DNA from: Haladaptatus sp. QDMS2
GTDB taxonomy: Archaea > Halobacteriota > Halobacteria > Halobacteriales > Halococcaceae
Length of the DNA stretch: 64,000 bases
Direction of reading: 5' to 3'
Assembly (NCBI RefSeq): GCF_029338295.1
Contig: NZ_CP119791.1
Location: forward strand, 1,860,001-1,924,000
The notes below the pieces were generated by a model. The model was not told the DNA's origin. It did no database searches and saw only the letters and a list, made by a program, of their open reading frames with translations. A program made the position numbers and the translations under genes. Positions 59,108 through 61,826 of the stretch are shown one piece after another. Within the stretch, counting starts at the first letter, position 1, and every line of letters begins with the position of its first letter.

Positions 59108-59587
59108 TCAGTCGGTCACGGAGAATGGACTCTCTCCTTCGGTCCACGACCACCCCGGCAGGCGGGTCTGGAACCCTGCGGCGAGGGCGGCGTCGAGGTC
59201 GTCCGCGCCCGCGACGCCCGACGTGTGCGTGTGTACGTCCGCGAAGTGAAACGTGGCCTGTCCGAGCAGGTGGAACGGCTGGTTCCCCGCAATCATCGCG
59301 GCGAGTTCGCGCCCGAGCAGTTCGTCCACGACGAAGCCGGGGTAGTCGCCCTCGCAATCTAGGTCCCGGAGGATGGCGACGATGCCCGCGACGTTCACGG
59401 CAAGTGTGCCGTCTGCGAACACCTCGTCTACGGCGTCTCGATAGGCGGCCTCGATTATCGGTTCGACCGTCACGTCGAACTGCGCGCCAAGTTTCTCGCG
59501 AACGTCGTTTACGAGCGGAACGACGACTGAGGCACGGTTTTTGACCCAATCGCGCTCTTCACGGACGGCGTCGGGGGTGAGTCGCAT
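59108..59587 (-). CDS. Conserved haloarchaeal-type protein, unknown function (159 aa)
   Basis: A 159-residue acidic protein starting MRLTPDAVREERDWVKNRAS. It is mostly helical, with VTVEPIIEAAYRDAVDEVFA and VAGIVAILRDLDCEGDY in the middle and FHFADVHTHTSGVAGADD near the C terminus. One cysteine is present. I do not recognise the family. Its TATA box (TTATAAAAG on the minus strand, 59630-59638) is 43 nt upstream and may be shared with the opposite strand. Confidence 0.78.
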   Translation of the reverse strand: MRLTPDAVREERDWVKNRASVVVPLVNDVREKLGAQFDVTVEPIIEAAYRDAVDEVFADGTLAVNVAGIVAILRDLDCEGDYPGFVVDELLGRELAAMIAGNQPFHLLGQATFHFADVHTHTSGVAGADDLDAALAAGFQTRLPGWSWTEGESPFSVTD

Positions 59588-59628
59588 GGCTGAACATGGC
59601 GGCCGATTGGCTACAATTTTGCGAAGGC

Positions 59629-59637
59629 TTTTATAAC
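59629..59637 (+). promoter_or_regulatory. TATA box, possibly bidirectional, upstream of the structured region
   Basis: TTTTATAAC is a canonical box. Rightward, initiation is expected at about 59656-59660, just before the hairpins. Leftward (TTATAAAAG), it sits 43 nt from the DUF gene ATG. Both directions are plausible. Confidence 0.6.
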
Positions 59638-59657
59638 CAAGAAGTGTTACCGAGAAT

Positions 59658-59777
59658 TACGTGCGGGTTTTCCGGACTCTTCCCGCAATCCGGCTTCACA
59701 GGTCCGGATCGCACTGCTCGATTCAGTAACGAAATCGATTCACACAGTACCTGTTATGCTACACAGTTTACGTACTG
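59658..59777 (+). ncRNA. Candidate structured leader or small RNA upstream of aCPSF1
   Basis: Hairpin 1 pairs TGCGGG (59662-59667) with CCCGCA (59682-59687). Hairpin 2, directly abutting, pairs ATCCGG (59688-59693) with CCGGAT (59704-59709). A mutually exclusive fold pairs GTGCG with CGCAC (59661-59665 / 59710-59714) and TCCGGAC with GTCCGGA (59671-59677 / 59702-59708). Hairpin 3 is CAGTAC/GTACTG with inner CTGT/ACAG (59745-59777). The 5' end would sit next to the predicted start of transcription. Whether it is a leader of aCPSF1 or a separate RNA is unknown. Confidence 0.4.
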
Positions 59778-59912
59778 AAAATGCCACTTTCGGTCACGTC
59801 GGCGACGAGGTGACACGGTGAGCGACCGGATTCCGGGCCGACGGCTCCGGGCACGGACCAGAGCAGGGCAGAGCGGAAGACCCACCACCCAAATTGCAGC
59901 CAATTTTGACCT

Positions 59913-61826
59913 ATGAGTACTGTAGAACGGCAACTTGAGGATTTGAAAGAAACGATTACGAGCGAACTGCCGAGCAACATCACCGTCTCCGACGTCAAGT
60001 ACGAGGGGCCGGAGCTCGTCATTTACACACGCGACCCAAAGGAGTTCGCCCAGAACGGCGACCTGATTCGGACGCTCGCCAGCAAGCTCCGCAAACGCAT
60101 CACGGTTCGACCGGACCCCGACGTGCTCACCGCGCCAGAGACGGCGCGCGAGCAGATTCTCTCAGTCATCCCCGAGGAAGCGGGCGTCACTGACCTCGAT
60201 TTCCACATCGACACTGGCGAGGTCGTCATCGAAGCAGCGAAACCTGGGATGGTCATCGGCCGCCACGGTTCGACGCTTCGTGAAATCACGCAGAAGGTGG
60301 GCTGGACGCCGGAAGTCGTCCGCACCCCACCAATCGAGTCCTCCACGGTCTCGAACGTGCGTAATTTCCTGAAGCAGGAACGCGAAGAACGCCGCGACAT
60401 CTTAGAGCGCATTGGACGCCAGATTCACCGCCGCGAGATGTCCAAAGAGGACTGGGTTCGCATCACGACCCTCGGGTGCTGTCGCGAAGTTGGTCGCGCA
60501 AGCTTCCTCCTTTCGACGCCCGAAACCCGCATCCTCATCGACTGTGGTGACAAACCGGGTGCAGAAGACGAGGTGCCCTACCTCCACGTCCCCGAGGTCA
60601 CGCCGCTCAACTCCATCGACGCGGTCGTGCTGACTCATGCTCACTTGGACCACTCCGCCCTGCTGCCGCTGCTGTTCAAGTACGGCTACGACGGGCCAGT
60701 CTACACGACTGAACCGACCCGCGACCTGATGGGCCTGCTCCAGCTCGACTACCTCGACGTGGCCGCGAAGGAAGGCCGAACGCCGCCGTACGAGTCCGAG
60801 ATGGTGCGCGAGACCATCAAGCACACAATCCCGCTCGAATTCGGCGACGTGACGGACATCGCGCCAGACATCAAACTCACGCTCCACAACTCCGGGCACA
60901 TCCTCGGAAGCGCCATCGCCCATTTCCACATCGGCGACGGCCTCTACAACGTGGCGTTCTCCGGCGACATCCACTATAAGGACACGCGCCTGTTCAACGG
61001 CGCGGTCAACGAGTTCCCGCGCGTCGAGACGCTCGTCCTCGAATCGACCTACGGCGGGCGCAACGACTACCAGACTGACCAGGCGGACTCGGAGGCGCGC
61101 CTCATCGAAATCATCAACGAGACCCACGAGAAGGGCGGGAAGGTGCTGATTCCGGCGTTCGCCGTCGGTCGCTCCCAGGAAATCATGCTCGTGCTGGAAG
61201 AGGCCATGCGCGAGGGCAAGATTCCGAGGATGCCCGTCCACCTAGACGGGATGATCTGGGAGGCGACGGCGATTCACACGACCTACCCAGAGTACCTCCG
61301 CGACGACCTGCGCGACCGCATCTTCCACGAGAACGAGAACCCGTTCCTCGCCCCCGAGTTCAACCACATCGACGGCGGCGAGGAGGAGCGCCAGGACGTC
61401 ACCGACGGCGGTCCGGCTATCATCCTCTCGACCTCCGGGATGGTCACTGGCGGCCCCATCATGTCCTGGCTCGAACACCTCGGTGGCGACGAGCGCACGA
61501 CGCTCGTCTTCGTCGGCTACCAGGCACAGGGGACGCTCGGGCGACGCATCCAGAACGGCTGGGACGAGATTCCAATCAACGACGGTGCCGGTCGCTCGAA
61601 CACGCTCAAGCTCAACATGAACGTGGAGACGGTCGACGGCTTCTCCGGCCACGCAGACCGAAAGGGTCTGATGGACTTCGTGCGCACCATGAACCCACGG
61701 CCCGAGAAGGTGCTCTGTGTCCACGGGGACGAGTCCTCGACGCAGGACCTCTCGTCTGCGCTCTACCACGAGTTCAACATGCGCACCTTCGCGCCGAAGA
61801 ACCTCGAGACGTTCCGCTTCCTCTAA
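59913..61826 (+). CDS. fttA: aCPSF1/FttA, transcription termination ribonuclease
   Basis: A 637-residue beta-CASP metallo-beta-lactamase ribonuclease, the archaeal homologue of CPSF73, which cleaves at U-rich sites and terminates transcription. Two N-terminal KH-like domains (~1-145) include the GxxG loop VIGRHGSTLREI (~111-122). The metal motifs are LTHAHLDHSALL (~240-251), NSGHILGSAIAHF and FSGDIHYKDTRLF. The beta-CASP part has ILSTSGMVTGGP (~507-518), and the C terminus has FSGHADRKGLMDF. The ATG at 59913 lacks a proximal TATA box. Its stop shares CTAA with the MaoC gene. Confidence 0.96.
   Translation: MSTVERQLEDLKETITSELPSNITVSDVKYEGPELVIYTRDPKEFAQNGDLIRTLASKLRKRITVRPDPDVLTAPETAREQILSVIPEEAGVTDLDFHIDTGEVVIEAAKPGMVIGRHGSTLREITQKVGWTPEVVRTPPIESSTVSNVRNFLKQEREERRDILERIGRQIHRREMSKEDWVRITTLGCCREVGRASFLLSTPETRILIDCGDKPGAEDEVPYLHVPEVTPLNSIDAVVLTHAHLDHSALLPLLFKYGYDGPVYTTEPTRDLMGLLQLDYLDVAAKEGRTPPYESEMVRETIKHTIPLEFGDVTDIAPDIKLTLHNSGHILGSAIAHFHIGDGLYNVAFSGDIHYKDTRLFNGAVNEFPRVETLVLESTYGGRNDYQTDQADSEARLIEIINETHEKGGKVLIPAFAVGRSQEIMLVLEEAMREGKIPRMPVHLDGMIWEATAIHTTYPEYLRDDLRDRIFHENENPFLAPEFNHIDGGEEERQDVTDGGPAIILSTSGMVTGGPIMSWLEHLGGDERTTLVFVGYQAQGTLGRRIQNGWDEIPINDGAGRSNTLKLNMNVETVDGFSGHADRKGLMDFVRTMNPRPEKVLCVHGDESSTQDLSSALYHEFNMRTFAPKNLETFRFL

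Follow-up and report, generated by a model that had tools for sequence, protein, structure and literature searches.

Translation of the haloarchaeal termination factor gene aCPSF1 probably depends on an upstream open reading frame in a conserved, structured leader that may mediate feedback by FttA

The gene for aCPSF1 (FttA), the main transcription termination factor of haloarchaea, is preceded in Haladaptatus sp. QDMS2 and across most of the group by a long mRNA leader with an upstream open reading frame (uORF), and both the leader and its uORF are well supported. We propose, with middling confidence, that aCPSF1 is produced through termination-reinitiation on this uORF and that its structured leader is a probable means of feedback by FttA. 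The window analyzed here is a stretch of 64,000 nt (NZ_CP119791.1, positions 1,860,001-1,924,000, forward strand), in which aCPSF1 occupies positions 59913-61826 (+ strand) and encodes a protein of 637 aa with the Pfam domains KH_TffA, Beta-Casp, RMMBL, and Lactamase_B. A previous sequence-only reading had located a canonical TATA box at 59629-59637 and a leader of about 255 nt. Indeed, the box TTTTATAAC is exact at this position, within a promoter block TTTTGCGAAGGCTTTTATAAC (BRE + TATA, 59617-59637, +), and its spacing predicts a transcription start near A59659 and a leader of approximately 254 nt (59659-59912, +), as does the spacing of the 5' motif in relatives. The same reading had seen no TATA box at the proper distance from the aCPSF1 ATG, and we likewise saw none in the window sequence at about -27 of position 59913. 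The neighboring frame at 59108-59587 (-) is divergently transcribed and encodes 159 aa with no Pfam match; a similar frame seems to precede the leader in many further haloarchaea.

We compared the aCPSF1 loci of 30 relatives and 80 named genomes, using alignments anchored on conserved motifs. The two sets partly overlap, so the later counts refer to distinct leaders. A near-invariant promoter, TTTTGCGAAGGCTTTTATAAT, precedes aCPSF1 in nearly all core haloarchaea examined, with at most 1-2 differences from the consensus in most of them. GGTTYTC follows at a constant distance of 25-28 nt from the TATA block, with GCG before it in most genomes, and a GCGGGUUYUCC-like element lies at the predicted 5' terminus of a leader that mostly measures 140-300 nt (extremes of about 110 and 430 nt). 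In the window, this conserved motif is the 11-mer GCGGGTTTTCC (59663-59673, +), which includes a U4 tract at 59668-59671 and occurs only once in the genome. The strict promoter and motif pattern was found in 260 of the 392 genomes of the order, with a single match in each. When 90 of these places were fetched, 85 had the aCPSF1 start downstream; the other five were Halorientalis-type loci that failed the start-codon filter and whose sequence matches aCPSF1 leaders from the protein search. Halococcus genomes lacking a strict match carry the same leader with GAAAGG in place of GAAGG. In two congeners of the window's strain, aCPSF1 is 98% identical and the promoter is unchanged. The conservation of the BRE/TATA block exceeds the needs of an ordinary haloarchaeal promoter, and there may be control at the promoter level as well. 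L030 and L031, both divergent within the order, have no leader, and their aCPSF1 follows, after a short spacer, a gene that looks psmB-like from a reading of its sequence. The leader may date from the loss of the psmB-aCPSF1 linkage in core haloarchaea.

The strongest feature of the leader was absent from the sequence-only reading, namely a uORF with its stop at the aCPSF1 start. In the window, uORF1 (59756-59821, +; ATG start, 21 aa, MLHSLRTENATFGHVGDEVTR), whose frame is kept in the congeners, shares a GTGA overlap with uORF2 (59818-59916, +; GTG start, 32 aa), and the TGA of uORF2 (59914-59916) forms an ATGA overlap with the aCPSF1 ATG at 59913, the adjoining stop typical of termination-reinitiation pairs. 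A Shine-Dalgarno sequence, GAGGTGA (59807-59813, +), lies 4 nt before the uORF2 start and is conserved in the three congeners. With ATG starts alone, the first ORF of the window stops 91 nt short, and it is the GTG-started uORF2 that bridges to aCPSF1. An indel shifts the frame in the two other congeners, where uORF2 still ends 3 nt before the aCPSF1 ATG.

An ATG-started ORF ending within -20 to +30 of the aCPSF1 start was found in 155 of 165 distinct leaders, an interval set after a first list of end points had been viewed. Restricting the count to the initial ATG per leader gave 134 frames that ended in this interval (74.3 expected from shuffling), and the exact ATGA overlap, a count independent of the chosen interval, occurred 96 times against an expected 52.9; the relatedness of the genomes makes shuffles, here and in the comparisons below, overstate significance. 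Collapsing the leaders to 54 genera, which is a partial correction only, gave 45.9 against 25.5 expected for uORFs ending there (sd ≤3.2) and 33.0 against 18.0 for the exact overlap. The encoded peptide as a conserved small protein was ruled out, with a flat G+C content over the three codon positions (0.656, 0.653, and 0.653) and nearly equal numbers of substitutions (712, 711, and 701). Since the peptide is not conserved, it is the frame that matters and not its product. No Shine-Dalgarno sequence precedes aCPSF1 in any of 106 leaders. In Haloferax volcanii, gene pairs of the ATGA type are translationally coupled, and haloarchaeal Shine-Dalgarno motifs serve reinitiation rather than de novo initiation (PMC6728339). 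As aCPSF1 lacks both a leaderless promoter and a Shine-Dalgarno sequence, it is most likely translated by termination-reinitiation from the uORF, and this probable dependence is the best supported part of our proposal. Some Halococcus leaders have no ATG uORF. The Halococcus leaders L008, L010, and L011 show ATA at the position of the uORF ATG, and the hairpin around it seems to be kept by two-sided changes relative to L012 and L014.

The pairings that the sequence-only reading had described in the leader are all exact in the sequence. Hairpin 1 (59662-59687, +) pairs TGCGGG (59662-59667) with CCCGCA (59682-59687) over 6 bp around a U-rich 14-nt loop, hairpin 2 (59688-59709, +) pairs ATCCGG (59688-59693) with CCGGAT (59704-59709), also over 6 bp, and hairpin 3 (59745-59777, +; CAGTAC at 59745-59750, GTACTG at 59772-59777) has a loop that contains the start codon of uORF1. 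The alternative helix P2 joins UCCGGAC (59671-59677, +) to GUCCGGA (59702-59708, +), which excludes hairpins 1 and 2, and the P2 fold has an outer stem (59661-59714, +) of GTGCG (59661-59665) and CGCAC (59710-59714). The segment 59658-59718 folds with -22.5 kcal/mol (z -2.50) and the whole leader has a z of -2.74; for each, 2 of 200 shuffles were equally good.

A lack of conservation of the stems in close relatives, which would have counted against the sequence-only reading, was not observed. Hairpins 1 and 3 are unchanged in the two congeners, the sequence of hairpin 3 being identical in all three species. P2 retains its 7 bp with one G-C pair turned into G-U, and the outer stem has 5 bp in the window and 4 bp in the congeners. 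Hairpin 2 is re-formed there in a shifted register, and strict compensatory changes in this hairpin, considered at one point, were withdrawn for that reason. For the three species, the calculated energies were -22.5, -16.6, and -16.6 kcal/mol for the P2 fold and -18.6, -20.5, and -18.3 kcal/mol for the hairpin fold. The two exclusive folds thus lie within 2-4 kcal/mol of each other in the genus, and the favored one differs by species.

A longest-helix test anchored in the 5' motif of single genomes was mostly non-significant (median p 0.44; 12 of 106 at ≤0.05), and the claims on structure consequently rest on comparisons between genomes. In a rule-based test of P2, UCCG-headed leaders were anchored on their first downstream CGGA, leaving three pairs free. 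All 41 distinct leaders with a CGGA were included, 22 leaders with the same head and no CGGA falling outside the test, and 104 of 123 cells were paired (shuffle mean 92; 0 of 2,000 shuffles as high). In a second count, made on a MAFFT alignment, 97.3% of the cells were paired, with 2 of 500 shuffles as good and slid controls at ≤67%, a percentage inflated by row selection, so that the rule-based figure is the fairer one. Its 37 rows were picked by hand: seven of the 41 leaders, with an evidently non-P2 first CGGA, were dropped, L167 was re-trimmed, and L008, L018, and L028, which have no CGGA, were added. In this alignment, three of the seven P2 pairs changed on both sides (G-C/A-U, A-U/G-C, C-G/U-A), so the helix proposed from the window alone covaries between families. 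From a plain MAFFT alignment of P2-class leaders, RNAalifold recovered essentially no consensus structure, as loops of unequal length put the arms out of register.

Hairpin 1 (GCGGG/CCCGC, loop of 13-18 nt) was found in 63 of 110 GCGGG-headed leaders versus 1 of 39 others; among those 63 leaders the stem never varies and hence shows no covariation. The outer stem of the P2 fold found no general phylogenetic support. A general long-range stem, P1, closing the element was also rejected, as a head-swap test gave it no support and only clade-specific cases were seen. By simple rules, 149 distinct leaders divide into 59 with hairpin 1 only, 32 with P2 only, four with both, and 54 with neither, several of the last group showing variants specific to their clade. 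Both folds occur in the leaders of the window, its two congeners, and L023, the last of which favors hairpin 1 by 11 kcal/mol. Mutually exclusive folds, as put forward by the sequence-only reading, therefore stand for the window's genus, where both are kept and a two-state switch is plausible, but such a switch is not a general feature. In Halosimplex (L076, L078, L082, and L089), the 5' CGGTTTTCC is matched by a perfect 9-bp complement, GGAAAACCG, shortly before the uORF ATG, which could allow an alternative pairing specific to this clade.

U4 tracts cluster at the two ends of the leaders, within the first 20 nt in 128 of 164 and within the last 45 nt in 60 of 164, where 13.1 would be expected; in the window, the latter tract lies at 59904-59907 (+), directly ahead of the aCPSF1 start. 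Between the ends, U4 is found in only 5 of 164 leaders versus 33.8 expected, a depletion that is not quantitative since the leader's own tracts inflate the shuffle expectation. Natrialbales and others have UUCU in place of the 5' U4. FttA binds U-rich RNA, with a preference for a U-rich stretch at 30-36 nt and a U at 23 nt from the RNA 3' end (PMC11616081). The 5' loop of the window fits this spacing (U4 at 59668-59671 and U59681, with the polymerase near 59703), a fit that was sought after the fact and is suggestive only.

These observations fit a model in which a dedicated promoter about 255 bp upstream would yield an aCPSF1 mRNA with a 5' leader, the first 60 nt of which would form the hairpin/P2 element at its extreme 5' end. 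Ribosomes would translate the uORF, terminate, and reinitiate at aCPSF1. When FttA is scarce, the leader would be covered by ribosomes and aCPSF1 would be reached. When abundant, FttA would act on the exposed U-tracts (U4 at the 5' end and U4 ahead of the start codon) and cause cleavage or premature termination, and how easily it does so would be set by the alternative folds of the 5' end. We infer that FttA is the effector, and consider feedback on its own leader, gated by ribosomes and the 5' fold, likely; the sequence-only reading had suggested autoregulation by attenuation, which the model retains as a presumed mode of action. Several points count against this model. Hairpin 1 would make it harder for its own loop to thread into FttA, the switch lacks generality, an ATG uORF is missing from some Halococcus leaders, and Natrialbales and others carry UUCU.

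Alternatively, FttA would have no action on the leader, and the uORF together with the 5' structure would set or buffer the rate of aCPSF1 translation, for example by linking it to ribosome supply. Neither the overlap of the uORF with the start codon nor the missing Shine-Dalgarno sequence needs FttA, and coupling alone is known in haloarchaea, but the conserved 5'-terminal element, the P2 covariation, and the placement of U4 are then left unexplained, and we regard this explanation as rather unlikely. That the leader is riboswitch-like and senses a ligand or a protein other than FttA would suit the deep conservation, the covariation, and the alternative folds of its structured 5' element. This is nonetheless improbable: Rfam covariance models gave no match in the leader at gathering thresholds and no meaningful score at relaxed ones, the fold differs among families, and there is one copy per genome with one target, whereas a general effector ought to act on several genes. 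A gene-specific, single-copy element fits the gene's own product as effector.

An independent small RNA between the two genes, the alternative raised by the sequence-only reading, would agree with the dedicated promoter and stable structure, but is disfavored and in our view very improbable, as no terminator-like site was found in the region, U4 hardly occurs in the middle of the leader, and the uORF frame reaches the aCPSF1 start, which ties the leader to the mRNA. An H/ACA guide RNA candidate had no match in the Rfam scan, the tRNA gene scan found none, and scans for bacterial-type promoters and intrinsic terminators returned nothing. We give the least credence to a DNA-level element, in which the start-site motif would reflect promoter control and the RNA fold would be incidental; conservation is even higher in the promoter block than in the RNA element and the spacing is rigid, yet the P2 arms covary at variable distance, which is not required of a DNA site. 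Single copy, frame retention, and P2 covariation make the small RNA, the general riboswitch, and the DNA-only site less consistent with the data.

The closest parallel to the proposed FttA feedback is rhoL-rho of Escherichia coli, likewise a leader with a short uORF before the gene of a general termination factor. The 33 aa of rhoL are similar in length to the haloarchaeal uORF. Here too, a long leader, with a predicted start site, and a uORF precede the factor's own gene. The rhoL-rho operon and termination within rho have been described (PMC12121999), and FttA is not homologous to Rho (PMC11616081). Two differences from rhoL-rho are the overlap of the haloarchaeal uORF with the start codon and the conserved structure at the 5' end. 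By analogy, the haloarchaeal leader would work like rhoL-rho without homology, presumably through feedback. Termination-reinitiation pairs of H. volcanii combine an ATGA overlap with a Shine-Dalgarno sequence for reinitiation, as found before uORF2 (PMC6728339), whereas the upstream partner of aCPSF1 is a non-conserved leader peptide frame and not a protein gene. Long structured leaders are thought to be atypical and rare in haloarchaea, and short ORFs of 15-31 aa were reported in H. volcanii leaders of 150-250 nt (PMC4983044). The text of that study was not found to name HVO_0874 (aCPSF1), and the structure, conservation, and start-codon overlap of the aCPSF1 leader are not described in it. 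An H. volcanii knockdown study indicates a start site for HVO_0874 in one of its figures. In the open-access literature, we found no report of aCPSF1 feedback or of its leader, and no description of archaeal control over the level of a general termination factor. The conservation of the aCPSF1 leader and its uORF in almost the whole group suggests that haloarchaea regulate the production of this factor via its own mRNA.
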